Shown: one piece after another, positions 47,036 to 64,000 of the stretch | Layout of the letters: the number at the start of each line of letters is the position of its first letter | How positions within the stretch are numbered: position 1 is the first letter of the stretch | Assembly (NCBI RefSeq): GCF_009831625.1 | Contig: NZ_WUUS01000002.1 | Span: 310,001-374,000 of the forward strand | Source: Halobaculum saliterrae | GTDB taxonomy: Archaea; Halobacteriota; Halobacteria; Halobacteriales; Haloferacaceae | Direction of reading: 5' to 3' | DNA length: 64,000 bases | The notes under the pieces: model-generated | What the model saw: only the letters and a program-made list of their open reading frames with translations | Databases searched by the model: none | Told to the model about the DNA's origin: nothing | Translations under genes and position numbers: made by a program

Positions 47036-48178
47036 ATGAGTGGAGAATATCGGTCAATGCCGCTCCGTCCCGTCGATCGCGACGTTCTGGAGGACATCTC
47101 ACAGGACATCACGCAGGCCAACTACGGGTTCCTGTACGTCGACCGCGTCCGCGACGACCTGAAGGACCAGTATCAGAGCAGAGAGAAACGTCGCCTGAAG
47201 GCCCCGAAGCTGTCGAACTCGGACATGAAGGAGGCCCTTCGGGACCTCGCCGAGGACGAGAACTACAGCCTCGAACGGATCCGGTCGGGGGTGTTCTACT
47301 GGGATCCGTTCGGGAGCGGCACGCGCACGGGGATCACGGAGCGACTCAAGGGCGTGTTTCGCGACCAGATGGTCGTCACCACCGAGGACCTCCGGAAGGC
47401 GTTCGATCTGGCACACGAGGACGCCGACTTCTTCGCCTCGCAGTTGCGCCGACAGAACCTCGTGATGCGCATCGCCGCCGGCAGCCGGGACTACTACTCC
47501 GTCGGCTCGCGGCTGAAGGAGGAGACCGGCGAGGACGACCTCAAGGGGAAACTCAAGCGACGATCGACTCACGGCAAGCTCTCGCACGGTCAGCTGGAGG
47601 AGGCGATCTCGGTGGCCGCCACCTCCGACGTGATCGGCTACCTTCAGGGCGAAGGGCTCATCATCGACATGGACGGGGAGTACCTCGTCCGGAGCGCGCT
47701 GGACGAGTTCGCCGAGAAGCTCGCCGACGACCTCGGCGACGACGTGAGCCGGGCGTTCGACGACGCCGGCAACGTGATGCCGACGGGCGAGTACGACTCG
47801 CTGATCGAGTCGGAGATCGAGGTCCGCTCGAACGTCCTCGCGCACGTCAGGTCCAGCGGCGCCGACGTCGACAAGCGGGACGTCGTGGAGGCCGTCCAGG
47901 ACGAGTACGGCGAGGGCGGTGACCCGCACATCGAGGTGCTCGAGGCGCGCAGCCTCGCGGTGGCCGCCGAGCCGTTCGACCGAATGGTCGAGGCGAGAGC
48001 GGAGGACCTGACGCGGCCGTTGTTGCAGGACCTGACGGCGGCCACGGCCGACTCGCTCAAGTCGGAGCTCCGCGAGGAGATCGAGGAGCTCCACCTCACG
48101 ACGAGCGACGCCGGGAACGCGTACGCACGGACGCAGGTCCGTGAACGCGGCGAGGAGCTGATCGACGAGCGGTTCTGA
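47036..48178 (+). CDS. Winged-helix-like protein opening the AAA+ operon
   Basis: This 380-residue soluble acidic protein has several helix-turn-helix-like stretches (e.g. RPVDRDVLEDISQDITQANYG, then LSNSDMKEALRDLAEDENYSL and SHGQLEEAISVAATSDVIGYL). A helical C-terminal third (LTRPLLQDLTAATADSLKSEL) is likely coiled. No enzymatic motif is seen. It could be a DNA- or protein-binding adaptor, and the winged-helix repeats resemble those in archaeal ESCRT-like or COP9/proteasome-lid proteins only in general shape. It starts the five-gene plus-strand operon. An ATG at 47057 is an alternative start. Confidence 0.7.
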   Translation: MSGEYRSMPLRPVDRDVLEDISQDITQANYGFLYVDRVRDDLKDQYQSREKRRLKAPKLSNSDMKEALRDLAEDENYSLERIRSGVFYWDPFGSGTRTGITERLKGVFRDQMVVTTEDLRKAFDLAHEDADFFASQLRRQNLVMRIAAGSRDYYSVGSRLKEETGEDDLKGKLKRRSTHGKLSHGQLEEAISVAATSDVIGYLQGEGLIIDMDGEYLVRSALDEFAEKLADDLGDDVSRAFDDAGNVMPTGEYDSLIESEIEVRSNVLAHVRSSGADVDKRDVVEAVQDEYGEGGDPHIEVLEARSLAVAAEPFDRMVEARAEDLTRPLLQDLTAATADSLKSELREEIEELHLTTSDAGNAYARTQVRERGEELIDERF

Positions 48179-48208
48179 CCACCGATCCACCACCACTCAC
48201 TGAATCCA

Positions 48209-49243
48209 ATGCGCTACACTACCTTCGAGGAAGACGAGAAGTCCGGAACAGTCGTCGCCCGACCGAAGAGCCAGACCGACTCGGCGGTCAGGTTCGAACA
48301 CGGCTTCGCCGACTGGGCCGACGAGGACAGCGGCAACTGGGAGGAACTGCTCGCCCACCTCATGGAGGAGGTCCTCGGCGGCGAGGACCTCTCGATCGAC
48401 CAGGACGGCAACGCGGTGATCGACGTGGATGACGCCGCGAAGACCCTCGCGGAGAGCGAACACGCCCGCAGCGAGGACTCCGCACGGGCCATCATCGACT
48501 ACCTCGGGCACAACGACATCGTCACGATCGAGCAGTCGACGGTGACGGTGCTGCGGCCGCCCCACACCTACGACGAGGACGAGATGGATCGGGCGGTGAA
48601 GATGTACAGCAACTGGGCGGCGGCGTTCGACACGCTGACCGAGCGGATCGAGACGGCCGTCGGTCGCGTCGAGGAGGCGCAGGAGCGGCTGAACTCGCGC
48701 GCGGAGGACACGACGGACGTGACTGAACACCTCCAGAACCTCCGCGAGTCGCGAGAGGAGTACAAACAGGAGATGCTCTCGATCGCGGGCGACCGCGACA
48801 TCGACGACCTCGGCGAGGAGGAACGTCGCAAGTTCGACCACGCCCGCGAACAGTACTACCACTACGACAACCTCGTCGAGCAGGAGGAGAAGCAGGGCGA
48901 GACGATCCCGAACCCGAACCCCGACCAGATGGACCTCGGGGAGATCATCAACCAGCTCGAGTCGACCAAGGACCAGTTCTCGATCGAGCAGGAACGCCTC
49001 AGGGACCGGATCCGGACCCAGCAGCTGTGGCCGACCGACGCGGTCGCCGCCTCCGAACAGTTCACGAACGTGCTGTCGGCGATGGGCAACGTCGTCCCGA
49101 AGCAACAGCGGATGGAGGAGGAGGACGCCCAGAACGTCCTCGACGACCTCCGCGGGAACTCCGACGAGCTCGCACAGATGAACGAGTCCTCCCAGGAGAT
49201 CACCCAGGGCGAGACGGAAGCCGAGACGATCACGGAGCAGTGA
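48209..49243 (+). CDS. Winged-helix and coiled-coil protein
   Basis: This is a 344-residue protein. An N-terminal mixed domain (about 1-115) includes a winged-helix-like part (DDAAKTLAESEHARSEDSA, then IIDYLGHNDIVTIEQSTVTVL). A long coiled coil follows (about 125-290: helices with AVGRVEEAQERLNSRAEDT, LRESREEYKQEM and LESTKDQFSIEQERLRDRI), and an acidic tail ends the protein. It is soluble with no signal peptide. It is the second gene of the operon, 30 bp after the first, and may be a structural or adaptor protein for the AAA+ ATPase. No family is recognised. Confidence 0.7.
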   Translation: MRYTTFEEDEKSGTVVARPKSQTDSAVRFEHGFADWADEDSGNWEELLAHLMEEVLGGEDLSIDQDGNAVIDVDDAAKTLAESEHARSEDSARAIIDYLGHNDIVTIEQSTVTVLRPPHTYDEDEMDRAVKMYSNWAAAFDTLTERIETAVGRVEEAQERLNSRAEDTTDVTEHLQNLRESREEYKQEMLSIAGDRDIDDLGEEERRKFDHAREQYYHYDNLVEQEEKQGETIPNPNPDQMDLGEIINQLESTKDQFSIEQERLRDRIRTQQLWPTDAVAASEQFTNVLSAMGNVVPKQQRMEEEDAQNVLDDLRGNSDELAQMNESSQEITQGETEAETITEQ

Positions 49244-49360
49244 GGATGACGGTCGGGGCTCCGTCGCGACCGGCGGTCGTCCGCACGGCGGGGTCCGACC
49301 CGTCGGGTCGGGATACCGACTCCCGCGTCGGGAGCGGAGCGCGAGGCGGGAGGTAACACA

Positions 49361-50005
49361 GTGTCACGTCCAACGAGCGCCGGTCCGTGGATCGACCGCG
49401 TCGCCGTCGTCGAGGAGACGAGCGAGCGGGTCCTCTCGTGGGCGGAGCCGCCGGCCCCCGGCGAGGTCTGGTCCGAGGTCGCGGCGTTCGACGCCGCGCT
49501 ACGCGGGATCGGCGACCTCTTCGCCGACGCGTTGCCGCTTCCGGTTCCGGCCACGGCCGACGATCCCCGCGTCGCGGAGGCGGTCGAGCGGGTGCTCGTC
49601 GCGGCGTTCGAGGGAGAGGAACCGCCGGATGCGGCGGTCGAGGCCGCACGCGAGACCGGCCGCCTCGGCGAGGACCCCGCGGACGGGCGCGCCGTGCCGC
49701 TGGCCACCGTCGGCGATCCGGTCGCGAACTGGTTCGTGCTCGTGCCGGTCCTCGCCGACCGACTCGAGGCGGCCGCCGAGCGCGTCGAACGCTGCGCCGG
49801 CAGGATGGAACTCCACGGCCGCCGCGACTCCGCGGCCGCGTTGCGGGACGTGGCGGGCGCCCTCCGAGACACCGTCGCGACGGTGCGGAACGTCGCCACG
49901 CGAACGCTGTGGCTCAATCCGCCCGACGGCCTTATCGACGCGAAGGAACGGCGGGTGCGCGAGTACGTGACCCGAACGATGAACGCCTACAACCCAGTCG
50001 CATGA
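49361..50005 (+). CDS. Small helical protein upstream of AAA+ ATPase
   Basis: This is a 214-residue, mostly helical, soluble protein that starts with GTG. Long amphipathic helices (VWSEVAAFDAALRGIGDLFADAL, residues 36-58; later LADRLEAAAERVERCAGRMEL and ALRDVAGALRDTVATVRNVATR) suggest a helical bundle. No catalytic motif is present. Its end overlaps the AAA+ ATPase gene by 4 bp, so it is co-translated and probably a dedicated partner. The 117-bp gap before it has no supported gene. Confidence 0.65.
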   Translation: MSRPTSAGPWIDRVAVVEETSERVLSWAEPPAPGEVWSEVAAFDAALRGIGDLFADALPLPVPATADDPRVAEAVERVLVAAFEGEEPPDAAVEAARETGRLGEDPADGRAVPLATVGDPVANWFVLVPVLADRLEAAAERVERCAGRMELHGRRDSAAALRDVAGALRDTVATVRNVATRTLWLNPPDGLIDAKERRVREYVTRTMNAYNPVA

Positions 50006-51627
50006 CGAGTGTCAATCTCACGCCGATCACGAAAGAGGACCAGCCGACATCCCACGTCACCGTGGGCGAGAGCAAGGTGGGACCGGGCGCGGAGGTCGTC
50101 CGCGTCCGCCACGCGGGCCGCGAGGCGTTCTTCCGGGTCGACACCGAGGAGGACGGCTTCGCGAGCACGATCAAGAACAAGGTCTACCTCAACAACAACG
50201 TCGCGACCCTGTTCGGGGGGATCAACCGGACGAACGACTTCTACGTCGACACCGACGTGTCCCTCGGGGCGATCAGAGCGTGCAAGCGCGCGACGATCTA
50301 CGCCGAGGGCGTCAACGAGGAGGCGCTGACGTCGGCGCTCGCGGAACGACAGTTCCTGCTGCACCCCATCCACGAGGTGGCCGACATCGGCGGCGAACGG
50401 GTCGAGTTCGTCGTCGACGAACTGGAGCCGCGGGCGACGACGCTCCGCGTCGACGACGACACCGAGTTCGAGTTCCTCGACGAGCCACCGACGAGCACGG
50501 GACCGCCGGCGGGCGCCGCCGCGGGCGGATCGGACGGCGGCGGGGCACCCGGGGGCGGCGGAGCGGGCGGCGGTGCCGGCGGAGGGGCCGACGAGGAGGA
50601 GGCCAACATCGACATCACGCCCCAGAACCCGACGACCAGCTTCGAGGAGGACGTCGCGGGCCTCGAGGAGGTGAAGCGGACGGCGGAGATGATGCTGTCG
50701 CTGTTCGAGCCGGACGTCCGCGACGAGGTCGTCGAGCGGTACGGCGAGGAGTTCGCCGACCGCGGCGGCGGGATGATGCTGTACGGGCCGCCCGGCTGCG
50801 GGAAGACGCTCGTCTCGGAGGCGATCGCCTACGAGGCGAAGCACAACACCGACATCGAGGACAGCTACGGCGAGGTCGTCTTCCTCGAGGTCCGCGGCAG
50901 CGACGTGGTCTCCAAGTACTCCGGCGAGTCGGAGAAGAACGTCCGCGCGGCGTTCGAGCAGGCCCACGAGGCCGCCGGCGACGGGTTCGCCGTGCTGTTC
51001 TTCGACGAGGTGGAGACCCTCATCCCGGACCGATCGGACGACATTCAGCGCCACGAGCGGGCGCTGACGAACGCGTTCCTGCAGGAGATGAACGACGTGG
51101 AGGACAACCTCCTCGTCATCGGCGCGACGAACATGCCGTTCAGCATCGACCCTGCGGCGACCCGCCGGTTCCCGATCCAGCAGTTCATCCCCCAACCCGA
51201 CGCGGAGGTGATGTCGGAGGTGTGGCGCACGTCGCTGGGCCGCATCGGCGAGGAGCTCGGCGAGGAGGCTATCGCGGAACTCGGCGAGGCCTCGGTCGGG
51301 TACACCCCCGCGGAGATCGCGGACCGGATACTGGGCTCGGAACTCCAACGCGAACTCATCGAGAGCGTCATCGACGGCGACGCGATCACGCCCGACAAGG
51401 AGTACCTAATGGAGAAGCTCGAGGAGTCCGAACCCAAGACCGTCCGTCAGTACGTCTCCTCGACGATGAAGCAGGCCTCCGAGCTGGAGGGGTACCCGGA
51501 GATGAAGCGGTACCTCGAGGAGCAGGCCCAGCAGATCCGCGAGGAGAACGCCGCGAGCGGAGAGTCGTCCGCGGCGCCCGACGGTGACGCTCCGGCGGCG
51601 ACGGGGAACGGGACGGGGGCCGAGTAG
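50002..51627 (+). CDS. AAA+ ATPase of the Cdc48/Vps4 type with N-domain and glycine-rich linker
   Basis: This is a 541-residue ATPase. A novel N-terminal domain (about 1-160) is joined by a glycine/alanine-rich linker (about 165-200) to one AAA+ module. That module has Walker A GPPGCGKT (262-269), a pore loop KYSGESEKNVR, Walker B VLFFDEVE (331-338), a sensor VIGATN and an Arg finger region in AATRRF. The C-terminal helical lid and a disordered Ser/Ala/Gly tail follow. It has a single AAA module, as in Vps4 and katanin, rather than the two of Cdc48. It probably forms a hexamer that remodels protein complexes, most likely those of its own operon. Confidence 0.88.
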   Translation: MTSVNLTPITKEDQPTSHVTVGESKVGPGAEVVRVRHAGREAFFRVDTEEDGFASTIKNKVYLNNNVATLFGGINRTNDFYVDTDVSLGAIRACKRATIYAEGVNEEALTSALAERQFLLHPIHEVADIGGERVEFVVDELEPRATTLRVDDDTEFEFLDEPPTSTGPPAGAAAGGSDGGGAPGGGGAGGGAGGGADEEEANIDITPQNPTTSFEEDVAGLEEVKRTAEMMLSLFEPDVRDEVVERYGEEFADRGGGMMLYGPPGCGKTLVSEAIAYEAKHNTDIEDSYGEVVFLEVRGSDVVSKYSGESEKNVRAAFEQAHEAAGDGFAVLFFDEVETLIPDRSDDIQRHERALTNAFLQEMNDVEDNLLVIGATNMPFSIDPAATRRFPIQQFIPQPDAEVMSEVWRTSLGRIGEELGEEAIAELGEASVGYTPAEIADRILGSELQRELIESVIDGDAITPDKEYLMEKLEESEPKTVRQYVSSTMKQASELEGYPEMKRYLEEQAQQIREENAASGESSAAPDGDAPAATGNGTGAE

Positions 51628-51629
51628 CC

Positions 51630-54623
51630 GTGGACGACGCCGGCTCGGACTCCGAGGAGTGGGGCGATTCCCCCGCCGACGAGGACTCGGACGCTTGGGG
51701 CGACCGGGCGGGCGACGGCTCAGCCGACCCCGGTTCCGAGCCCGTCGACGTGCCGGGCGCGGCGGACGTATCCGATGAACCGGACGCCACCGCGACCGAG
51801 GAAGTAGCGCAGGACGATGGGACGCCAGACGAGACGGCCCACGCCGACGCCGACGGGTCGGAGACGGACCCGGCCGAGGAGGCGACGGTTCCGGACCGGT
51901 ACGTGCAGGTCGACGCCTTCGACATGCCGGAGGTCGCGGCGGCGGACGCGGGCCCCGGCGTCATCGCCGTCGCGACCGCGGACGGCCGGATCGACCTCAT
52001 CACGTCGGGCGACCGGCGGCGCGTCACCCGCAGGGACGGCGTGATCGACGTCGCCGTCGCCGACAGGGTGTACGCGCTCACCGACACGGAACTGGAGGCG
52101 TTCTCCCACGCGGGGAGCCGCGTGTGGGGCGTCGACGTGACGGACGGTCGCTCCGTCGACGCCGACCCCGAGGACGACCGGGTGTACGTCCGAACCGGCG
52201 ACGGGGAGTTCGTCGTCCTCGAGGGGCGGACCGGCATCGAGGCCGGCCGGTTCGACCAGCCGAACGCCGAGGTCGCCGAGTCGCCCGCGGTCGCCGCCGC
52301 AGACGGCCGGCTCGCGGTCGCCTCGTGGTCGTTCCTGACGGTGCTCGACTCGTCAGGGGATCTGCTCGACGAGCAGACCCTCTCAGGCGCGGTCACCGAC
52401 GTGGGGCTGCTCCCGGGGCGTGCGGTCGTCTCTCTGAAGGACGGCCAGCTCGTCGGGTACGAGGGCGACGAGCGGCTGTGGGGGGTCGACGGCGACGTCT
52501 CCTGGCTGGCGGACGCCGGGATCGCGGCGCTGGCGGCCCGCGTCGCCGGCAGCGACTACGCGGTGGACACCGACGGCGACCGGCGCCCGCTCGACGGGGT
52601 GAGCGGCACGCCGATCGCGGCGACGCCGGCGCTGGATCTGGTGTGCACGGTCGGAAGCGGGACGGCGACGGTGTACGCGGCGGTCGGGCAGGGTGACGAG
52701 TCCGTCGGCGTCCGGATCGAGTCGGAGTCGGTGCGTCCCGCCGACCCGACGGTGGTGCTCGCGCTCACCAACGAGGGCGACCGCGCCGTCGAAGTCGACG
52801 CCACCGTCGAGTCGGAGGGTGCCGAGGTCGCCTCCTCGACCGTGTCGGCCACCATCGACGCCGACGCAACCCAGCGTCGGCGCGTCTCGCTGCAGAACCT
52901 GTCGGCCGAGGAAGTGACCGTCGCCGCGACCGCGGGCGAGGCGTCGGTCGAGAGAACCCTGGAGGTGCAGGAGGAGACCACCGCGCTCCGCGTCGACGCC
53001 GTGCTCGATGGGGTCGAGAACGGCGTGTTGTCCGCGGCGATCGAGGTCGAGAACGAGGGCGAGTCGAGCGTGACGGGCGTCACCGTGGGGGAGAGGACCG
53101 TCGGGACGCTCGACCCCGGCGAGGCCGAGCGCGTCCCGTTCGAACAGGACCTGCCCAGCGGCGCGGTGGCGGTCCGCGCGGACGGCGTCGACCCGTTGGA
53201 GGCCGGGACGGCCGTGCCGACGACGCCGACCGCGATCGATCTCGAGGCGGAGTCCGACGGCTTCCTCTCGGTGACGCTGCGCAACGAGACGCCCGTCGCC
53301 GTCGACGACGAGGTCACCGTCGAGGGCGTCCCCGACGAGGACGGCTCGTTCTCGATGCCGGTCTCGATCCCGGCGAACGGTGCCTATCGACTCGCGCTCC
53401 CGGTCGCGTCGCCCGGCGAGCGCTCCGTCACCGTCGAGACGAGCGGCGGACGTGTCTCCGAGCGCCTCTCGTTGGCGCGGTGTTCACTGCTCGGGGAGCC
53501 CGCGACCGGCGGCGACGCCGGTCGAACGGGCGCCGGCGGTGACGGTCGAGGGGCGACCCGATCGCGGGGACGGTCGTCGACCGGGTCCCGACCCGTCGCC
53601 GGAGGCGACGAGGCAGTGCCCGTCTCCATGGACCGACAGTTCCCGTCGGAACCGCCGCGTCGGGGCGTCGTGTTCGAGGAGCGGCTGGTGGTGTCGAACG
53701 AGTCGGCCGAGCCGGTCGAGTTCGAACTGCGAACGGACGACGGCGCCTACGCACAGCGACTGAAGGTCCGCGGGAGCGGGCAGGCGGTCGGGACCAGGTA
53801 CCACGTGCCGCTGGAGTCGACGCTGTCGCTTCCCAGGGTGGAACTGGAACACGAGGGAGGGGTCGCGTCGCTTCCGGAGACCGATCTGTCGGTCGACGAC
53901 GGGGGCCTCGTCGCGACGATCACGTGGCGGCGGGACGACGCCCGCGACGGCGGCGAGCTCTCGCTGTCGCTCGAGAGCGACGAGGGGACGTGGGAGGTGG
54001 AGGACGCCGTCGTGGGCGGCGAGCGGTCGGCGCCGATCGACGCGCGCGTCGGCCCAGACTCGCCGGCACAAGTCACGGTCACCACCCCGTACACGCTCCG
54101 CGACGAGGTCGGGAAGGCGTTCGTTCGCGCGCGTCGGGTCGACAGCCGGGCGGCAGAGGGAGACGTACAGCAGATCAACACGCTGGTCGTCCACGAGTCG
54201 GTCACGGACGGGGACGACGACCGCGTGGACGACCTGAGCGTCGAGGTAGAATCCGACTCGCGCGTCGAGCGCGGGTTCGGGTCTGTCTTCCTCTCGATAA
54301 CGAACGACGGCTCGCGGCCGGTCGCCGGCGTCTCCGTCGACGCCGACGGGTCCCACGTGGAGAAGGCGATGTACGCGGACGGCGACGACGGGGAGACGAT
54401 CGCTCCGGGGTCGTCGCTGCGGTACCTCGTCGACCTCGAGGGCGTCGAGGCGGGCGAGGAGGTCGTCGTCGACGCCGAGGTGACGGCCGGCGAGGCCGCC
54501 ACGCACGCCACCGTCTCGGCAGTCGCCGACGAGGACGGAGCCGTCGAGTCGGGGGACTGGACCCTCGATGTCGAGACCGACGAATCCGGCGGGCCGTCCC
54601 GGCTCTCGACGCAGTACGAGTAA
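51630..54623 (+). CDS. Large cytosolic propeller and Ig-like repeat protein
   Basis: This is a 997-residue protein starting with GTG, two bases after the AAA+ gene. Residues 1-90 are highly acidic and disordered. About 90-350 form a beta-propeller with repeated blades (VIAVATADGRIDLITSGD, RVYVRTGDGEFVVLEGR, RAVVSLKDGQLVGYEGD). From 350 on come CARDB-like Ig folds, each rich in alternating strands (TVVLALTNEGDRAVEVDA, LSAAIEVENEGESSVTGV). An Arg/Gly-rich hinge (about 625-660) is followed by two or three more such domains. There is no signal peptide or membrane segment, so these normally extracellular folds are apparently inside the cell. It may be a scaffold. Confidence 0.7.
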   Translation: MDDAGSDSEEWGDSPADEDSDAWGDRAGDGSADPGSEPVDVPGAADVSDEPDATATEEVAQDDGTPDETAHADADGSETDPAEEATVPDRYVQVDAFDMPEVAAADAGPGVIAVATADGRIDLITSGDRRRVTRRDGVIDVAVADRVYALTDTELEAFSHAGSRVWGVDVTDGRSVDADPEDDRVYVRTGDGEFVVLEGRTGIEAGRFDQPNAEVAESPAVAAADGRLAVASWSFLTVLDSSGDLLDEQTLSGAVTDVGLLPGRAVVSLKDGQLVGYEGDERLWGVDGDVSWLADAGIAALAARVAGSDYAVDTDGDRRPLDGVSGTPIAATPALDLVCTVGSGTATVYAAVGQGDESVGVRIESESVRPADPTVVLALTNEGDRAVEVDATVESEGAEVASSTVSATIDADATQRRRVSLQNLSAEEVTVAATAGEASVERTLEVQEETTALRVDAVLDGVENGVLSAAIEVENEGESSVTGVTVGERTVGTLDPGEAERVPFEQDLPSGAVAVRADGVDPLEAGTAVPTTPTAIDLEAESDGFLSVTLRNETPVAVDDEVTVEGVPDEDGSFSMPVSIPANGAYRLALPVASPGERSVTVETSGGRVSERLSLARCSLLGEPATGGDAGRTGAGGDGRGATRSRGRSSTGSRPVAGGDEAVPVSMDRQFPSEPPRRGVVFEERLVVSNESAEPVEFELRTDDGAYAQRLKVRGSGQAVGTRYHVPLESTLSLPRVELEHEGGVASLPETDLSVDDGGLVATITWRRDDARDGGELSLSLESDEGTWEVEDAVVGGERSAPIDARVGPDSPAQVTVTTPYTLRDEVGKAFVRARRVDSRAAEGDVQQINTLVVHESVTDGDDDRVDDLSVEVESDSRVERGFGSVFLSITNDGSRPVAGVSVDADGSHVEKAMYADGDDGETIAPGSSLRYLVDLEGVEAGEEVVVDAEVTAGEAATHATVSAVADEDGAVESGDWTLDVETDESGGPSRLSTQYE

Positions 54624-54804
54624 CGCCCGTCCACGACCCGGACGGCGGCCGCGTTCCTCGCTCGCGGCTTCTGTGAGAACGGGCCCGACCGTCGCCCCGA
54701 GACCGAGCTATCACCGCGAACAGCGACAGTCACACGAAGAATTACGGAAGCGCGATCCCGAGGCGTGTCCCGCCCTGACAGCCTCTCGGAAAGCCGGCAG
54801 CGCC
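54624..54804. other. Convergent gap between the two large operons
   Basis: This 181-bp region separates the plus-strand and minus-strand operons end to end. It includes no gene I can support and no strong T-run that would mark a terminator. Short inverted elements are present, but none is distinctive. Confidence 0.35.
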
Positions 54805-57531
54805 TCAGGTGGAGGTCCGCGTGAGGAACTCCCCCGTCGTGGCCGCCTCGGCGTCCTGCACGTACGCGTACGTGCGGAAGCCGACGCGGGCGAGCACGAG
54901 CACGACGACGAGCGCGTACGCCCCGATCGCCCCGAACAGCCCGTATCGGCTGATCGACAGGCGGTTCTCGACCGTCGCCGCCCGGTCCGCCGCGGTGTTC
55001 GCCTCGTCGGTCGCGCCGGCGCGGTCGAAGCCGTCGATCGAGTCGTCGTACCGACTGTTGATCAGGTCGATCTCCCCGAGCACCGAGTCCGCCCGCGCCG
55101 GGTTGAGCACGAGGGGGTATCCCGCGAGCACGACCGTGGCGTTCGATCGGTACGCCGCGTACGCTGAGTCGCCGGCGGCGCGGTCGGTCGCGGCGTCCTC
55201 GACGAGCGCTCGATACCGAGCCGACGCCTCCTCGTAGCTCGACCTGTGTCGCCGTTCCGCCTCCTCGTCGCCCGTGTAGTCGGCGAGTTGCATCAGCGAA
55301 CGGTGTGCCTCCGCGGACTCGATCGCGGACTCGTTCGCCTCCACGACGTCGGTGTAGTGGTCGCGCTGGGCGGCGACGGTCTCCTCGAACGCCGAGTCGG
55401 CCGCGCCGACCCCGCCCTGCGCGGTCGATCGGAGCTCGTCCTGTTCTATCGAGTCGGCGTACTGCCGCATCAGGTCGCGGGCGACGGCCGCCCTACCCAG
55501 CGATCGCTGTGCCTGCGTGTAGTTCCCGTTCTCCTGGGCCGTCCGGGCGGCGTCGAGGGAGTCGACGAACAGCAGCGTCGCGCGGCCCGCCGCCAGCCCC
55601 CGTGAGAGGTCGGAGCCGGGAACCCCGGCGTCGCCCCGAAGGCGCTCCTCCATCGACAGGAGCATCTCGTTCATCGGCCCCGCGGTGTCGCTCTTCCACT
55701 GCTCCTGGGAGTCGTACTCGCCGAGTGGCTCGGTGATCCGGTCGAAACTGTACGGCTTCGCCGTCGCGGTCACGTTGATCGTCCGCGACTCGACGCCGTC
55801 GCCGGTCACGCGGAACTGCCAGCGGTACTGCTGGTACAGCTCCGCCTGCGTGTCGAACCGCAGCGCGACGACCAGCGGTTGCGTCTCGCCGGCGCCGACG
55901 GTGCCGCTCGGGCGACTGACGACCGTGAGCCATCGGTCGGGACCCTCCACCTGTTCGACTCGTACGTTCTCGATCGACTCGTAGCCGAGTCGCTCCGCCA
56001 CGTCGATCGTCTGCGTGCGGTTCTCGGTGATCGTCACGTCGCCGTACTCGACCGATCCGGACACCGACAGCTCCGGCTCCTGCGTGATCGTCACCGTCCG
56101 CGTGACGGTCTGCGTACCCGCGTCCTCCGTCCGGACGGTTATCTCGACGTCGTACTCGCCCTCCGGCGTGTCGTCGTCGGCTGTGAGCGCCAGCGTCGCC
56201 TGTCCGGTCGCGAGCCCGTCGACCGTGTTCGGGACGTCGGCGACGTCGGCGGTGATGTACTCGCCCCCGCTCACCATCGACGCGTCGGCGTTCACGACGT
56301 TCATCTCGAGGTCGCCGGAGTTGACGATGCCGACCTCCGTGGTCTCCTGGAACGTCGACGTCGAGGACTTGGGTTCGTCGAACGAGATCGTCGTGTCCGA
56401 CGCCTCGACCCGTTCGAGGTTCGCGGGGTAGATCACCCGCCCGGAGACCGTGAAGGTGTAGCTGGGTGCGTCGTCCGCCTCCGGCGTCACCTTCACGTCC
56501 CACTCCAGTTCCTCGTGTTGGTCGGCCGTGTCCCGAGCGCTCATCGTCACCGAGGCGGTGTCGCTGCCGCCGGCGGTCGTGGAGACGGACCGGAGATCGT
56601 TGAACGAGACGCTGCCGTCGGTCTCCGCGCCGATCACCTCGACATTGAGTCCGCTGATGCCGTCGTTGCCGGCGATCTCGTCGACCCGGAAGTCGACCGT
56701 GCTGGAGGACCCGACGAGCACGTCGCCGACGTTCACCTCGTCGCCCGAAACCGAGGCGATCGGCGGCTTCACCACGTCGACGGAGACGGTGGTGTCCCGC
56801 GTGTTCCCGAGGTTGTCCGTCAGCGTCATCGTGAAGCTGTACGATCCCGCAGAGACCTCGTCGTCGGCGGTGACCTGGATCCCCACGTCACCCTCGCCGT
56901 TCGCGTCGATCGTGTCGGGGATCGACTGCGTGTCGACGGAGAAGCCCGAGGGGACGTTCGAGAACGTCGCCTCCGAGATCACCATCGCTCCGTCGCCCGT
57001 GTTCGGAACGGTCACGTCGAAGGAGGTCGACTGGGACTGACTGTTGGGGTTGTCGAACACCAGCTTCGGGTCGCCGGCATCCGGGAAGCCGAAGTCGGGA
57101 TACAGGAGGTCGACGTACACGTCGAGGTCCTCCGAGTAGGACGTTCCACCCGAGATCGTTGCCGTCCCCGAGTAGGTTTGCTCGTCCACGTCTCCGGTGA
57201 CCGATACGTCGTAGATGACGCGGTACTCCTCGCCTGCGACCGGGTCCCACGTGTTGGACGTACCGCTCGCGGTTCCGCCGACCTGTTCCCAGGAATCGAA
57301 CGCGAAGACCACGTTCCCGCTCGCCCGCGTGATCTCGTCTGTCGCTTCCACCGTGTCGTTCGAGTCGGCCGTGAACTCGAACGACAGCTCATCGGAAACC
57401 GTCTGGTCCGTGAGCGCGGCGTCCTTCTCGACGGTGGTCGAGACGCCGACAGCCGGGGTCGCCGCGCCGAGCGCGACGACGACCGCCAGTAGCACGGCGA
57501 TGAACCGGACCGAGCCGACGGCTCGGCTCAT
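54805..57531 (-). CDS. Secreted, C-terminally anchored surface protein with Ig-like domains
   Basis: This is a 908-residue protein. A Sec signal peptide (about 1-29, FIAVLLAVVVALGAATPAVG) leads into a long ectodomain of beta-rich, CARDB-like repeats (e.g. STSFDVTVPNTGDGAMVISEA and TTEVGIVNSGDLEMNV). A helical part follows (about 620-850), then one transmembrane helix (about 862-881, YGLFGAIGAYALVVVLVLA) and a 27-residue cytosolic tail. Many Asn-x-Ser/Thr sites allow N-glycosylation. It is the last gene of the minus-strand operon, overlapping its upstream neighbour by 4 bp. It should project from the cell and may couple to the internal GTPase through its short tail. Confidence 0.78.
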   Translation of the reverse strand: MSRAVGSVRFIAVLLAVVVALGAATPAVGVSTTVEKDAALTDQTVSDELSFEFTADSNDTVEATDEITRASGNVVFAFDSWEQVGGTASGTSNTWDPVAGEEYRVIYDVSVTGDVDEQTYSGTATISGGTSYSEDLDVYVDLLYPDFGFPDAGDPKLVFDNPNSQSQSTSFDVTVPNTGDGAMVISEATFSNVPSGFSVDTQSIPDTIDANGEGDVGIQVTADDEVSAGSYSFTMTLTDNLGNTRDTTVSVDVVKPPIASVSGDEVNVGDVLVGSSSTVDFRVDEIAGNDGISGLNVEVIGAETDGSVSFNDLRSVSTTAGGSDTASVTMSARDTADQHEELEWDVKVTPEADDAPSYTFTVSGRVIYPANLERVEASDTTISFDEPKSSTSTFQETTEVGIVNSGDLEMNVVNADASMVSGGEYITADVADVPNTVDGLATGQATLALTADDDTPEGEYDVEITVRTEDAGTQTVTRTVTITQEPELSVSGSVEYGDVTITENRTQTIDVAERLGYESIENVRVEQVEGPDRWLTVVSRPSGTVGAGETQPLVVALRFDTQAELYQQYRWQFRVTGDGVESRTINVTATAKPYSFDRITEPLGEYDSQEQWKSDTAGPMNEMLLSMEERLRGDAGVPGSDLSRGLAAGRATLLFVDSLDAARTAQENGNYTQAQRSLGRAAVARDLMRQYADSIEQDELRSTAQGGVGAADSAFEETVAAQRDHYTDVVEANESAIESAEAHRSLMQLADYTGDEEAERRHRSSYEEASARYRALVEDAATDRAAGDSAYAAYRSNATVVLAGYPLVLNPARADSVLGEIDLINSRYDDSIDGFDRAGATDEANTAADRAATVENRLSISRYGLFGAIGAYALVVVLVLARVGFRTYAYVQDAEAATTGEFLTRTST

Positions 57532-58529
57532 TGGCTCGGCACCTCCACGGGCTCGCGCGGGACGATCCGTCCCACCTTCGACCCGTCCACGTCGTCGGCC
57601 CACGTCGCGATCCGCCAGCCGAACGCGGCGGCGACGAGTCCGACGAGGAGCGCGTACGCGAGCGACAGGATCGTCGCGGCCACCGAGAGCGAGAACAGCG
57701 CGTCACTCGTCGCGGTGGCGAGGGTGTTCGCGCGCTCGCTCTCGGCCTCGAGGCCGTGCTTCTCGGCCAACTGGGCGGCGACGTCCGCGTCGGCGGTCGC
57801 CGAGCGTGCGTCGGTGTACGTCCCGAACACGCCCGGGCCGAGCGTCGTTATCGCCGCGACCGGCGAGCCGCAGGCGTCCCCGCAGTCGTCGACGAACGCC
57901 CCGGCGGCGCTCAACGCGGAGTCCATCCGCTCGCGGTCGGACTCGTAGATCGCGCGGACGCGGCTCGCCTCGGCACTCACCGACGAGTACCGTTGGCTCG
58001 CGCCGGCGGCCTCGAACGCCGCCGCGGCGCTCTCGAGGTCGTCGAGTTCGGCCGAGGTGTTCGTCGCCTCCCGGGAGCGCTCGTACAGCACCTCCCCGCG
58101 CTGCTGGTAGAACCGCTCGAGACCGAGTCGGGCCAGCGTCGCGTAGCCGTCGCCGCCGGCCTCCTCGAGCCGCTCGATGGCTTGGGAGGTGGCGTCGGCC
58201 CGCGCGAGGCTCTCGTCGGTGCTGTCGTTCTGTGCGGCGCCGTACGCCGCGGTGAACTCCTCGAGGACAGTCACGACCGCGGCCATCTGTTCGCGGTCCG
58301 CCTCGGTGAACTCGCCGGTCTGTACGTCCGTGACGGCCTGTCCGCGCATCACCTCGAACTCGGAGTACGTCGACAGCGCCGGGGAGTCCTCGTACTGCCG
58401 TAGCTCCGTGAGGAACTCGTCTGCCGTCTCGGCGTCCGTCTGGGTCGCCCCGACGGGCACCGTGCCGACGACGAGCAGGAGACACACGGCGAGCGTTGCG
58501 ATCGGTTGGGTAGGTCGGTTGGATAGCAT
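57528..58529 (-). CDS. Secreted helical protein with C-terminal membrane anchor
   Basis: This is a 333-residue protein. A signal peptide (IATLAVCLLLVVGTVPVGATQ, residues 9-29) is followed by a helical ectodomain, with a small cysteine pair DDCGDACGSP that may form a disulfide. One transmembrane stretch (about 278-309, LFSLSVAATILSLAYALLVGL) and a 24-residue cytosolic end complete it. The helices resemble the helical section of the downstream surface protein, so the two may pair. The ATG at 58529 lies two bases after the upstream stop. No family is recognised. Confidence 0.75.
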   Translation of the reverse strand: MLSNRPTQPIATLAVCLLLVVGTVPVGATQTDAETADEFLTELRQYEDSPALSTYSEFEVMRGQAVTDVQTGEFTEADREQMAAVVTVLEEFTAAYGAAQNDSTDESLARADATSQAIERLEEAGGDGYATLARLGLERFYQQRGEVLYERSREATNTSAELDDLESAAAAFEAAGASQRYSSVSAEASRVRAIYESDRERMDSALSAAGAFVDDCGDACGSPVAAITTLGPGVFGTYTDARSATADADVAAQLAEKHGLEAESERANTLATATSDALFSLSVAATILSLAYALLVGLVAAAFGWRIATWADDVDGSKVGRIVPREPVEVPSQ

Positions 58530-58531
58530 CG

Positions 58532-61432
58532 TCAGTACATCGTCCTGTTGAGCCGGTCGAGCAGGCGCGGGTGTTCGAACAGCTCCGTGACCGACTCGAC
58601 GAAGCCGGCGACGGCGAAGACGAACGCCGCGTTCCGCACCTCGTCCGACTCCCGCGTCTCGCCCTCGTACGCCTGTAGTTCCTCGAGGACGTCGCTCGCG
58701 GGCGAGACGACGTTCACCTCGCCGCGGTGGTCCTCGACGGTCGATTCGGCCTCCGAGAGCCGCGACTTCAGCTCCGCCCGCTGGCTCACGCGGTCCGCCG
58801 CCGCCAGTTCGAAGAGGTCGTCGAGGTCGTAGTCCGCCCGCCACTCCTCGGAGACCTCGCGCATGTCCGCACACGCGCTGAACAGGTCGACGTTGTGCTT
58901 CGTGTTCATCGCGTTGTCGACGCCCTCGACGCAGCCGCGACCCGCCGACAGCATCGCGTCGACGACGGGGTCCGGTTCGACCCCGGTCTCGGCGAACCGG
59001 ATTCCGGAGTCGGGGACTCGCTCGACTGCGTCGCCCAGCGAGCGCGCGACGCTCGCGTAGTAGCTGTGAACGGCTGAATCGAGCCGACCGCCCGGGAGGA
59101 GGTCGTCCGCCTCGCGGCGCAGCGCCTCGAGCGACTCCCGCTGGGTCGCCGACAGCTCGAACGCGAACGGCACGTCGAGCGTGACGGTCGCCGTGTCGTC
59201 CTCGGGGACGGTGACACGCGAACGGACGTCCTCGAACGGCTCGCCGTCGACCGAGCCGACCAACGTGTACTCGCCGGCCGGGAGTCCGACCGCGTCGCCG
59301 CCACGATCGGTGGGGCTCGACTCCCGCAGTCGCTCCTTGAGCCACTCGTCGTCGGTCTCGAGGCTCACGTTCACATCGTCCGTCGGCTCGCCGCCGATGG
59401 CGGTTTCGACCCGGAGCGTTCCGGTCTTCCCGACGACGCGCAGTTCCTCGGGGACGTCGTTCGGGTCGGTCACCTCTCGGGTGTCGGGTTCGTATCGCTC
59501 GTGTTCCGCGGTCACCTCCACGCCGGAGGCGGTCATCGGGAGCGTCAGCGACACCTGTCCGCTCTCGTCGGTCCGCTCCGTGACCCGCTCGCCGTCGAAC
59601 GTCGCGGTGACCGTCGCGTCCCGCACCGGCTCGCCCGTCTCGTCGATGACGCTGACGCGTTTCGACGCCGGCTGGAAGCTCAGCGTCACCCGGTCGTCAC
59701 CCACCTCCGCCGTCTCGGTGACGGTCGCGCCGTTGTACGAGGCGGTGAACTCGTACGGCTCGGCGTCGAGGGTCCACGTGACGACCCCGCCGTCGACCGT
59801 CTCCTCCCGGCCGCCGCCGTCGCGGTTGACGCCGCTGGACGACCCCAACGGCTGGCCCGTCGGTCGCGCGGTCAGGTACACCTCGTCGGAGAGCTGCTCG
59901 TTCGCGAACCCGTCGGCGATCCGGACGCGCACGTCCCGCGTCCGTGTCGACGCGGCCGCTCCGGATCCCGAGCCGTCAGACTGGCCGAGCACGAACTTCC
60001 CGACCGCAACTCCGCCACCCCCGACGAGGAGCACAAGGAACCCGAGGACCAGCCCGAGTTCGAGGGACCTGGGCAAACCGACACTGGGGATGAAGCCGAA
60101 CAGGTCACCCTCTTGATTGTCCGGGCCCACGGCAGTCGTCGTATTCCCCTGGTCCGACTCGTCGGTCGCCGGTTGGAGTGCCGACGGTTCGCCGTCGCCG
60201 ACGGAGACTGTCGTCGCCCGCGCGTCGGCGAACGCGACGACCATCCGGTAGGACCCCTCGGGGTTCAGTTCCGACTCGTTCGAGAGCCCGAGCAGCGAGA
60301 GCGTCGCGCCGTCGACCGACGCGTTACTCAGTACGCCGACCTCGCTCGACGTCGACAGGAGGACGAACGAGACCTCGTCGCCTTCGAACGTGCCGGTATC
60401 CAGCGTCACGCTGCGGTTCCCCTCGGCGACGGACGCGGACTCCGGATCGGTGTCGTTGTACGTCGTCGACAGCACCGCCGATCCCTCGGTCGTCACGTCG
60501 ATCGTGACGCTGTCGATCCCGGCGATGTTCTCGTTCTCGACGACCACCGACGTGACGCCGTCGCTCTCCCGTGCGGTCGTCAACACGGCGTATTCACCAT
60601 CCGGTCCGTTCGTTTCGAGGTGGACACCGTACTCCGTTCCACCGACCAATAACGGCGACTCCACCGTCACGCGACCGGGAGACACGAGGACCCTCGGGTC
60701 GGGAGCGGCGTTCGTGAGCGACACGGCCGTCTCACCCGTGACGGAGGGTCCCCCGTCGGCCGCAGAAAGCCTCAGGTCCGCGGGCGGCGCGAGGAGCCCC
60801 GTGAACGCTTCGTCGCGGTCGATCCGGACCGTCCCGTTCTCGAGCGTCGCCGAGAGCGTTTCCGAGCGATCGTCGCCGTTCGCGGTCGCGGCCAGTTCGA
60901 AGGACGCGCCGTCGAGCCCGGCGGTGTCGTTGGTCGCTGTCAGGGTGAGCCGTCCCTCCTCGTCGAAGGAGCCGGCTCCGTCGCCGAGGTCTAGATGCCG
61001 GAGATCGACGCCCTGTTCGGTGAGGAAGTCGGTCCGGTTGTCTTCGGATCCCTGGTACACCTGCACGGTGGCGTTCGCCAGCGAGAACTCGGGAAGCCTG
61101 TTGGACGCGACCGTGTACGTGTAGACCCCGTCGGCCTCGGAGTCAGGCGAGACGCCCGATATCGTTTTCTTCTCCCCGCCGGATTCGATCAGGACGTTCA
61201 CTGCCGAGTCGTTTCCGACGCGTTCGGCGTCGAGTTCGAATCGCAGGGCCCCGGAGTCTGTCTGACGCAGATCCCCCGCTGCCATCGTCGATCCCGACGC
61301 CGTCAGCGCCCCGACCGTCGGGGAGTCGGGAGCGCCGACCGTAGCGGTCGCCGTCGCCGGCCCGACGACGAGCGCCAGCACGAGGAGCGCGACGAACAGC
61401 CGTCGGTGTGTGGTGTTCCCCATCCGGCTCAC
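58532..61432 (-). CDS. Secreted protein with Ig-like ectodomain, one membrane span, cytosolic PEGA-like part
   Basis: This is a 966-residue protein. A signal peptide (about 8-32) leads to an ectodomain of strand-rich repeats with many Asn-x-Thr/Ser sites. A single transmembrane helix sits at about 457-482 (LELGLVLGFLVLLVGGGG). The 480-residue cytosolic part has carboxypeptidase-regulatory-like Ig folds (KRVSVIDETGEPVRDATVTA, and later LRVETAIGGEPTDDVNV). A helical domain with several Cys and His residues ends it. The large internal half is unlike its two siblings and is a good candidate to contact the FtsZ-like protein directly. Start is GTG, overlapping the upstream gene by 4 bp; an ATG at 61423 is an alternative. 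Confidence 0.75.
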   Translation of the reverse strand: MSRMGNTTHRRLFVALLVLALVVGPATATATVGAPDSPTVGALTASGSTMAAGDLRQTDSGALRFELDAERVGNDSAVNVLIESGGEKKTISGVSPDSEADGVYTYTVASNRLPEFSLANATVQVYQGSEDNRTDFLTEQGVDLRHLDLGDGAGSFDEEGRLTLTATNDTAGLDGASFELAATANGDDRSETLSATLENGTVRIDRDEAFTGLLAPPADLRLSAADGGPSVTGETAVSLTNAAPDPRVLVSPGRVTVESPLLVGGTEYGVHLETNGPDGEYAVLTTARESDGVTSVVVENENIAGIDSVTIDVTTEGSAVLSTTYNDTDPESASVAEGNRSVTLDTGTFEGDEVSFVLLSTSSEVGVLSNASVDGATLSLLGLSNESELNPEGSYRMVVAFADARATTVSVGDGEPSALQPATDESDQGNTTTAVGPDNQEGDLFGFIPSVGLPRSLELGLVLGFLVLLVGGGGVAVGKFVLGQSDGSGSGAAASTRTRDVRVRIADGFANEQLSDEVYLTARPTGQPLGSSSGVNRDGGGREETVDGGVVTWTLDAEPYEFTASYNGATVTETAEVGDDRVTLSFQPASKRVSVIDETGEPVRDATVTATFDGERVTERTDESGQVSLTLPMTASGVEVTAEHERYEPDTREVTDPNDVPEELRVVGKTGTLRVETAIGGEPTDDVNVSLETDDEWLKERLRESSPTDRGGDAVGLPAGEYTLVGSVDGEPFEDVRSRVTVPEDDTATVTLDVPFAFELSATQRESLEALRREADDLLPGGRLDSAVHSYYASVARSLGDAVERVPDSGIRFAETGVEPDPVVDAMLSAGRGCVEGVDNAMNTKHNVDLFSACADMREVSEEWRADYDLDDLFELAAADRVSQRAELKSRLSEAESTVEDHRGEVNVVSPASDVLEELQAYEGETRESDEVRNAAFVFAVAGFVESVTELFEHPRLLDRLNRTMY

Positions 61433-62628
61433 CTCGCGTTGATCGAGACGTAGCGTTCGAGGTTCTCCGAGAGGTCGGCCACGTGCGCCTCGGAGATGGA
61501 GTCGTCGGACGCGTTTCCGAGCTGTCTGGCGGCCTCAACGTTCTGTTTGTGGGTCTCGAAGGCGTCCCGCGAGTGGTCGAGCAGCGGGTTCAGGTCGAAG
61601 CCGCCGAGCAACACCAGCACGTCGACGTCGTTGCCGCGTGTCTGTTTCGGCGTGAGGGTCGTCATCCCGACGGCGCCGCCGATGTCGTTGTCGCGCTTCC
61701 ACTCGCCGAAGGCCGACTGGACGCCGGTCTCGGTGATGTCGCCGGACTCGATGAGCTGTTCGGGAGCGCGCACGACCGCGTACGCCGCCCGCGACGTCGT
61801 CACGTCCATCGGGACGAACGTCTGCTCGGCCGCGCGGTCGAACAGCAGCTCGTACTCGAGCATCCGCCCGTTGAGCCCGGTCGCGACCGCGGGCGTGAAG
61901 TGATACGCGCCGATGTTCGACGGCTGGGCGACGTAGTCCTCCACGTCGATGACGCCGCGGGCCTCGCGGCCGGCGCTGATGAACAGGTCGATCGCGGTGA
62001 CGATACGGTCGTTCACCTCGTCGTAGCTGCCCTGCGTCCCGTCGTCGTTGAGATGGGAGTTGCTCGCCAACAGGACCATGTCGGCGTTCTGTTCGCCGTT
62101 CCGCTTCATCAGGAGCCGCGACAGCCCCATCACTGCGTTGAACTGGCGCTGTGCGGGCTCGTCGTAGTAGGGCCACGCCGCGAGCGCGACGTGGACGACG
62201 CTGTCCATCCACGGCCTGAGGTTCGACGCGTCAGACCCGCCCGACAGCTGCTCGATCAGGTACGGGATCGACCCGTTTCCGGTGCCGCCGCCGAGCGTCG
62301 TCATGTGCATGAACGCGTCGGCGCCGGTCATCCGCTCCTGGATGTCGCCGACGATGAGGTCGAGGTCCTCGCGGGCGCACTGCTCGCCCGCGATGAAGTT
62401 GTTTCCGACGCCGCGTTTGGACCCGAACACCGTCGTGAACTCGGAGGTGTCATCGAGGGACGCCCGCTCGATGGTGTTCAGGATGTCCGCGCGGTTCGTG
62501 TTCAACAGCGCGATGCGGTCGTCGATCCCGGGGTTGTCCTCCCGGGCGAGCAGTTGGGCCGCGATGCGGCCGCCGCCCTCGCCCGAGGAGATGACGCCCC
62601 AGCGAGTGAACGTGTCCCGCTGCGACAT
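61429..62628 (-). CDS. Divergent FtsZ/tubulin-superfamily GTPase
   Basis: This 399-residue protein has the tubulin-fold GTP-binding motifs in order: the T1 loop SGEGGGR (15-21), an FtsZ-like GVGNNFIAGEQ (73-83), the signature GGGTGNGS (113-120), LLASNSHLND (186-195) and VND (205-207). The co-catalytic T7 loop, normally N-x-D-x-x-D, appears as VIDVEDY (226-232), so its acidic residues are shifted. It lacks the usual FtsZ C-terminal tail and is clearly not FtsZ1, FtsZ2 or CetZ. It overlaps the upstream gene by one base and the downstream secreted gene by four. Polymerisation and GTPase activity are expected from the fold but unproven. Confidence 0.8.
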   Translation of the reverse strand: MSQRDTFTRWGVISSGEGGGRIAAQLLAREDNPGIDDRIALLNTNRADILNTIERASLDDTSEFTTVFGSKRGVGNNFIAGEQCAREDLDLIVGDIQERMTGADAFMHMTTLGGGTGNGSIPYLIEQLSGGSDASNLRPWMDSVVHVALAAWPYYDEPAQRQFNAVMGLSRLLMKRNGEQNADMVLLASNSHLNDDGTQGSYDEVNDRIVTAIDLFISAGREARGVIDVEDYVAQPSNIGAYHFTPAVATGLNGRMLEYELLFDRAAEQTFVPMDVTTSRAAYAVVRAPEQLIESGDITETGVQSAFGEWKRDNDIGGAVGMTTLTPKQTRGNDVDVLVLLGGFDLNPLLDHSRDAFETHKQNVEAARQLGNASDDSISEAHVADLSENLERYVSINAR

Positions 62629-64000
62629 CAGGCGCTCACCTCCGTCTCTCCGACGTCGACGCCGGCGTCGAGGTCACGCAGCGTCGAGCGAATGAGGTCG
62701 TCGGATGCCGGTACCGAGAGGAACTTTCGCCGCATTTCGTCGTATGTCATCGTGTCGCCCTCGCTCAGGTTGTGGGTCGTGATCGTGTCGAGTCGGGAAC
62801 GGAACTGGTCGTGGTCGTACACGAGGACGCGTCCGTCGTCGAGCGTCGCCTCGTGACCCGCCTCCTCAGCCCACAGGACGAGCAGACAGGGGACGTACTC
62901 GGCCGCGACGGGGATGTCGGAGTCGGGCGTGAGGTACTCCTCGGCCGCGAAGCCCTCCTCCAGCTTGGGAGCCACCGTCGGCAGTTGGCTCTCGACGTCG
63001 TCGACGTCGGCACCGCAGACGCGCTCGCGGAGGCCGATCTCAGCGAGCTCGAGTTTGACGGACTCGTCGTCCGCGACCTGTACGGTCGTCTCCTCGTCCG
63101 CGAACTCCTCGGTCGGCGTGGTCGCCGACACCGTGTACTCCCCGTACGGGATCTCCTCGAACGTCGCCTCCGTGGCGACGTACGTGGTCGCGGTCTCGCG
63201 CTCGTCGACCCCGTCGCCCGAGAGCGCGACCGTCAGGTCGTGTTCCTCCCCGGTCGAGGTCGCCATTTGTGCCGTGGCGGTCACCGTGTACGACTCGCCG
63301 CCGCCCTCGGCGACGACGGCCGGGACGGACGGGTCGAACTCGACCGCGCCGTTCCCGTCGGCGTACAGCTCGAGGAACGGCTCCGCGTCGCGGACCGGCA
63401 GGTCGTCGGCGGTCACGCGACCGTCCGTGCGCACGCCGTCGGCGATCCGGTCCTCAACCATCCCGTAGGAGTCGGCCACCGACGCCTTCGTCTCGGCCGC
63501 CTCGACGGCCTCCGTCAGTTCGCCCGCCGCGGCGAGCCACTCCTCGCGGAACTCGTCGAGATCCGCCGCCTCCCGCAGCCGCGCCTCGTAGTCGGTGGCG
63601 ACCGCCGGCGGCGCCGTGTAGAACCCCACGGGTACGTCGGCCTCGCGGATCACGTCGACGTCGGCCGCGAGCTCGGATTCGAGGGTCGCGACGACGTTCG
63701 TGGCGGCCCGTCGGACGTCCTCGCCGACCGTGTCCAGCTCGTCGCTCGCGAGCGCCGAGTCGATGCCTGCGAGCGTCTCCCGTGCCTCCTCGAACGTCCG
63801 GAGGTCGGCGTCCTCCGCGTACCTGTCGACGCCGACCGAGTCGACCGTCGAGAGGAGCCTGTCGATGCTGTCGCGGTCGGCGCTGAACGCGGCGCTCACC
63901 TCCGACTCGGCGTCGCCCTGCGCGTCGTCGATCGCCGCGCTGGCGCCGTCCCAGTCGGCGTCCTCGATGCACTCGCGTGCGGTGTCGAGGTGCGACTCGA
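62628..64000 (-). CDS. Helical/Ig-like protein, partial (start beyond window)
   Basis: The coding frame runs to the window edge without a stop. I checked the codons from 63900 to 64000; they read as acidic helical protein (HLDTARECIEDADWDGASA), so the GTG at 63899 is not the real start. At least 456 residues are visible. They comprise a helical N-terminal part, an Ig-like strand-rich part (residue pattern YGEYTVSATTPTEEFADEE), and a C-terminal helical, possibly winged-helix end (SEGDTMTYDEMRRKFLSV). Its stop overlaps the FtsZ-like start by one base. No family is recognised. No transmembrane segment is seen in the visible part. Confidence 0.75.
   Translation of the reverse strand, partial: ESHLDTARECIEDADWDGASAAIDDAQGDAESEVSAAFSADRDSIDRLLSTVDSVGVDRYAEDADLRTFEEARETLAGIDSALASDELDTVGEDVRRAATNVVATLESELAADVDVIREADVPVGFYTAPPAVATDYEARLREAADLDEFREEWLAAAGELTEAVEAAETKASVADSYGMVEDRIADGVRTDGRVTADDLPVRDAEPFLELYADGNGAVEFDPSVPAVVAEGGGESYTVTATAQMATSTGEEHDLTVALSGDGVDERETATTYVATEATFEEIPYGEYTVSATTPTEEFADEETTVQVADDESVKLELAEIGLRERVCGADVDDVESQLPTVAPKLEEGFAAEEYLTPDSDIPVAAEYVPCLLVLWAEEAGHEATLDDGRVLVYDHDQFRSRLDTITTHNLSEGDTMTYDEMRRKFLSVPASDDLIRSTLRDLDAGVDVGETEVSA

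Follow-up and report, generated by a model that had tools for sequence, protein, structure and literature searches.

Several described systems come close to the locus considered here. The Halo_adaptin system, of the endosomal sorting complex required for transport (ESCRT) type, is presented in the main text of Makarova et al. (mBio 2024, PMC10936438) as a Vps4-like ATPase with a Cdc48/VAT N-domain accompanied by winged-helix, ESCRT-III-like and propeller/immunoglobulin (Ig)-like proteins, an ATPase half to which one CetZ-related protein is added; that paper is the source of the ESCRT-III and winged-helix assignments. Santana-Molina et al. (2023, PMC9871819) report, in the passages concerned, haloarchaeal tubulin-like proteins outside canonical CetZ, named Halo.Tub, which occur in quasi-tandem copies. 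FtsZl1/Tubulin_2 (Makarova and Koonin 2010, PMC2875224) is a divergent FtsZ-like protein whose gene context is that of membrane remodelling. Here we describe a stretch of 64,000 nucleotides of Halobaculum saliterrae (RefSeq GCF_009831625.1, NZ_WUUS01000002.1, positions 310,001 to 374,000; hereafter the window), part of a contig of 454 kb, in which five plus-strand and five minus-strand genes form convergent operons with 181 bp between their ends. Our preferred reading, held with a little better than even confidence, is that the two operons encode one accessory haloarchaeal envelope machine, in which the Halo_adaptin ESCRT-like system is combined with a three-tubulin membrane scaffold.

That both operons constitute one functional unit we regard as almost certain. 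Among 391 genomes, orthologs of the minus-strand gene Z1 (61429..62628), which specifies a tubulin-superfamily GTPase of 399 aa, were found in 40 at a threshold of >300 bits, and strong matches to W1 (47036..48178, 380 aa), the first gene of the plus operon, in 38, all with Z1. Z1 occurs alone in two genomes, W1 alone in none, and 351 have neither; G345, with a marginal match (E 5.6e-4), was left out of the W1 count. The carriers span five families, and the association (Fisher 8e-51) was calculated with species treated as independent though they are kin. The same convergent order is present in nine genomes besides the source genome, gene order being conserved across haloarchaeal families, and the family trees broadly agree (patristic r 0.67–0.95, without an unlinked-gene background for comparison). 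In three genomes (G017, G061 and G098, two of which are Halopenitus persicus and H. malekzadehii) the minus operon stands alone at its locus and a complete plus operon lies elsewhere. One might take these separate loci, and the two genomes with Z1 and no W1, to mean that two unrelated operons have become neighbors by chance. This is refuted by co-occurrence in 38 of 40 genomes over five families, by the conserved convergent order and by the retention of both halves when split, and we hold it to be extremely improbable; apart and independent is not how the operons are found in most genomes. Because all 38 genomes with W1 have Z1, even where the operons lie apart, as in Halopenitus, we treat them as one system. 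In the same three genomes the separated W1-AAA operon has a CetZ-like gene at a distance of about 4 kb, in G061 a tandem pair.

An initial annotation of the window had already proposed a single machine of an AAA+ ATPase, a tubulin-fold polymer and envelope proteins. The core of that proposal is borne out by the co-occurrence, by the order kept across families and by the persistence of both operons in Halopenitus despite their separation. Its single divergent FtsZ-like GTPase has given way to three tubulin families (Z1, Z2 and Z3), and its statement that no description was known is wrong for much of the set, since the main text of PMC10936438 covers the ATPase half together with a CetZ-related protein and PMC9871819 reports quasi-tandem haloarchaeal tubulin-like proteins.

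Within the source genus, 6 of 11 sampled species carry the cluster. It is carried by plasmid PHS2 of Halobacterium salinarum R1, and in further genomes, on a Natrinema plasmid, on Halobaculum plasmids and in Haloquadratum walsbyi the regions examined contain the set, whole or as far as they reach. The spread among congeneric species and the plasmid locations suggest an accessory, transferable trait. One plasmid (G340, contig C2) apparently has two copies of the cluster.

Within the window the ten genes, their strands, their tail-to-tail arrangement and the gaps of 30 and 117 bp given in the initial annotation were all confirmed on the coordinates. As the window ends within the minus operon, six further genes had been missed, so that the ten-gene extent stands only for the window. 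The next 20 kb show that the minus operon runs 8.4 kb beyond the window, to about 72397 (coordinates above 64000 are in extended numbering and lie outside the window), by way of the minus-strand genes M5 (64709–65752), S (65754–66041), Z2 (66038–67201), H (67288–68838), Z3 (68842–70467) and TM (70490–72397). The full set comprises 16 genes, five in the plus operon and 11 in the minus operon, the latter encoding three divergent tubulin-superfamily GTPases, of which Z1 lies within the window and Z2 and Z3 outside it, and seven membrane or secreted proteins. Beside the cluster, the minus-strand frame 44541..46325 specifies a protein of 594 aa that seems to consist of two NAD-synthetase-like halves in tandem.

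The plus operon is very probably the Halo_adaptin system. Downstream of W1, after the 30-bp gap, lies CC (48209..49243), specifying a coiled-coil protein of 344 aa, and after the 117-bp gap HB (49361..50005), specifying a helical protein of 214 aa; HB overlaps by 4 bp with AAA (50002..51627; 541 aa, an N-domain and one AAA+ module), which is followed at 2 bp by PROP (51630..54623), the gene for a cytosolic propeller/Ig-like protein of 997 aa. By position and outline W1 corresponds to a winged-helix protein of the published system; CC takes the position of its winged-helix/coiled-coil protein and HB that of its ESCRT-III/PspA-like protein. Further likenesses are an ATPase with a VAT/Cdc48-type N-domain and no detected MIT domain, a helical protein just upstream of that ATPase, and the presence in the locus of a putative propeller/Ig protein, a membrane protein and a CetZ-related protein (Z1 against CetZ, E 2e-13). 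Haloquadratum walsbyi, which PMC10936438 names, carries the present cluster.

The gene product of AAA possesses a pfam PF00004 motif [108.6 bits], a Walker A sequence GPPGCGKT and the pore loop KYSGESE; the RRF motif is present and PGR absent. Its N-domain model, with confidence values of 75–93 over most of residues 1–160, adopts the Cdc48/p97 N fold (Z 14.3 against p97-N, 155 residues aligned, root mean square deviation 4.2), and Pfam gave no MIT match. In a tree that was without a confirmed reference Vps4, the ATPase module falls outside the haloarchaeal Cdc48 D1 and D2 clades and the PAN clade. What had been called a single-module AAA+ unfoldase does have a single module, joined to a Cdc48/p97 N-domain, which makes an unfolding activity plausible. 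A role in anti-phage defence was considered and rejected, as the matches of the ATPase to the IetA and TRIP13 models reflect the shared AAA+ module alone; PADLOC gave no match for any other cluster protein tested. For W1 only a weak Pfam winged-helix match was obtained (Mnd1 HTH, E 0.1), and the winged-helix identity of W1 and CC was not reproduced by sequence profiles. CC occupies the same position in every intact cluster examined, and a counterpart of HB (210–252 aa), upstream of the ATPase, is present in nearly all clusters examined. PROP displays weak BamB-propeller and designed-Ig matches and is found in both full and reduced clusters. In Haloquadratum walsbyi J07HQW1, as on the Halobaculum and Natrinema plasmids, it appears as two reading frames, which could be halves of a split gene or encode separate proteins.

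All three GTPases exceed the curated cut-off of PF00091 (33 bits), Z1 at 38.1, Z2 at 52.6 and Z3 at 51.1 bits. None reaches the FtsZ model TIGR00065 (cut-off 295 bits; 26.8, 45.6 and 32.6 bits, respectively) or the FtsZl1/Tubulin_2 model PF13809 (cut-off 27 bits; Z2 18.6, Z3 14.1, Z1 none). The acids of the T7 D-x-x-D motif are invariant in the aligned Z1, Z2 and Z3 families, namely D228 and D231 in Z1 (13 sequences), D240/D243 in Z2 and D359/D362 in Z3. The T4 loop of Z1 reads GGGTGNG and that of Z2 is likewise normal; in Z3 it is TKGTGCG. Z1, Z2 and Z3 each form a clade of their own, apart from FtsZ (support 100) and CetZ (ultrafast bootstrap 99), in a small tree in which one wrongly picked reading frame (own_G048b) attached to Z1 and of which the deep nodes were not used. 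Z3 has clear relatives in 15 of 145 genomes of the class, from several families, two of them divergent. A viral or phage origin was rejected, since no relative of Z1 or Z3 was found in viral contigs. G048 has a second, distant Z1-like protein (31% identity) away from its reduced cluster.

Among solved structures Z1 is closest by sequence to CetZ (E 2e-13), and several of the membrane proteins have ectodomains. Both observations would fit a system for shape control or surface patterning, that is, CetZ-type shape control elaborated on a plasmid, with the ATPase doing no more than tune filament turnover. We consider this improbable, for Z1, Z2 and Z3 lie outside the CetZ clade, the source genome already has CetZ-type proteins, and presence in about 10% of species suggests an optional function.

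Reduced loci bear on how the parts belong together. The ATPase ortholog, which scores 835–1013 bits in the five full-cluster genomes tested, is absent in G042, G048 and G081. G042 and G048 keep Z2, M5, M4, Z1, M3, M2, M1 and PROP, and adjoining the reduced cluster is a Tubulin_2/FtsZl1 protein of about 1150 residues with membrane-protein partners; in G081, TM, H, PROP and a divergent Z3 stand beside a third Tubulin_2/FtsZl1 protein. An FtsZl1 neighbor at each of the reduced loci is suggestive, the loci being few (n=3). These loci make the system look modular, PROP being the part they share. Long FtsZl1 proteins occur in about 20 of the 145 genomes; where examined, their gene is mostly paired with one for a membrane protein, and in several haloarchaea this pair (FtsZl1 of about 1050–1190 aa) stands on its own. 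Mutual exclusion of FtsZl1 and the full cluster was considered and not upheld; none of the 145 genomes has both, an absence of overlap that is not significant with 13 and 20 carriers (P 0.13).

The same loci bear on the proposal of 2024, by which the cluster would primarily be an ESCRT-type system for protein sorting and vesicle budding: cargo is bound by propeller/Ig proteins, membrane deformation falls to an ESCRT-III-like protein that the ATPase recycles, and the tubulins have an accessory part. This was published for Halo_adaptin loci (PMC10936438), and both the Cdc48-type N-domain of the ATPase and the gene order match it. Three conserved tubulin families are, however, a large accessory, the reduced clusters drop the ESCRT-like part and keep two tubulins and membrane proteins, and sequence searches detected no ESCRT-III similarity in HB, so that we consider it possible but somewhat doubtful.

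Meeting PROP tail to tail is M1 (54805..57531, minus strand), the product of which (908 aa) has a signal peptide, an Ig-like and helical ectodomain and a C-terminal transmembrane segment. M2 (57528..58529, minus; 333 aa) likewise has a signal peptide, a helical ectodomain and a C-terminal transmembrane segment, and is related to the C-terminal part of M1 (hhalign P 83). M3 (58532..61423, minus; 963 aa) consists of a signal peptide, an ectodomain, a central transmembrane segment (residues 456–474) and a predicted cytosolic Ig-like/helical part, and contains a PF13620 [CarboxypepD_reg, 32.4 bits] motif. M4 (62628..64712, minus, within the window to 64000; 694 aa) has two N-terminal transmembrane segments and a large helical/Ig part; by hhalign it has both TM (P 68) and M3 (P 80) as relatives. 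The M4 gene adjoins Z1 as the TM gene adjoins Z3. Z3, H and M3 all end in strongly conserved tails, LFxCLGRxNM in Z3 and LFEHxxLRERLxRTVF in M3, which may serve for docking. G031, the locus of which has no ATPase ortholog, retains part of the Z3 tail; the partner of this tail is for this reason more likely to be TM, H or PROP.

Starting from the observed composition, gene order and co-occurrence, the Cdc48-type N-domain and the conserved GTPase motifs, we put forward, tentatively and at well below even confidence, the following mechanism for an envelope machine of both operons. With GTP, Z1, Z2 and Z3 would polymerize along the cytosolic side of the membrane, either separately or into mixed filaments, anchored presumably by M4 and TM, which are encoded beside Z1 and Z3. 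M1–M3, M5 and S may provide the link of this scaffold with cargo or with the cell surface, and in the cytosol PROP might join the filaments to the membrane proteins. The Cdc48-type N-domain would be the site by which W1, CC and HB bring in the ATPase, whose single ring would pull scaffold subunits apart, such that the structure bends, buds or is recycled. It is probably the ATPase that serves the scaffold, by remodelling or recycling it, and not the scaffold that serves the ATPase, since W1 is never found without Z1 in the 391 genomes while the tubulin and membrane part exists without the ATPase operon. That the three co-encoded families build one membrane-anchored heteropolymer, dismantled by a dedicated ESCRT-linked Cdc48/Vps4-type ATPase, with exchangeable modules (Z1/Z2, Z3, FtsZl1) around a propeller/Ig connector, is a more specific idea and to our minds a rather unlikely one as it stands.

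Several points weigh against the envelope machine as we read it. G042 and G048 are without Z3, TM, H and the ATPase half, and since they keep Z1, Z2, membrane proteins and PROP the ATPase is not needed in every version. With sequence profiles, none of HB, W1 and CC could be matched convincingly to a known ESCRT fold, and HB in particular had no sequence match to ESCRT-III structures; the AlphaFold model of Z3 is poor (predicted local distance difference test score 48) and unfit for structure search. Vesiculation of H. volcanii uses the small GTPase ArvA and is normal in its CetZ knockouts (PMC10927574); vesicle production as such therefore needs no CetZ-type protein there, which disfavors simple vesicle production as the sole role.

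Work on tubulin polymers and work on ESCRT machines have usually been separate fields, and here three tubulin families are tightly tied to an ESCRT-like ATPase module; if the heteropolymer idea given above is true, a tubulin cytoskeleton and an ESCRT-like module make up a single prokaryotic apparatus. The presence of the whole set on plasmid PHS2 of H. salinarum R1, a laboratory strain, makes the link between tubulins and ATPase accessible to genetics and imaging. Neither a later paper on Halo_adaptin nor an experimental study of any cluster gene was found in the open-access literature.

Compared with known systems, the AAA product resembles Cdc48/p97 in its N-domain fold and AAA+ module, and differs in having one module, not two, and in its position outside the D1/D2 clades. 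CetZ provides the best solved structure for Z1 and has a similar T7 loop, but the clades of Z1–Z3 lie outside it. FtsZl1/Tubulin_2 is linked to the system by the proteins that adjoin the reduced clusters, and is distinguished from it by other partners and by the scores of Z1–Z3 below the PF13809 cut-off. Halo.Tub is likely identical with Z1–Z3; the passages of PMC9871819 concerned do not discuss the ATPase half. Where the main text of PMC10936438 has one CetZ-related protein, the present locus has tubulins of three families along with seven membrane or secreted proteins, in fixed order. What is new relative to that text is thus the three tubulin families, the fixed 16-gene set and the reduced variants beside FtsZl1, and these extra tubulins and exchangeable modules, as against a single CetZ-related protein, alter what needs testing.

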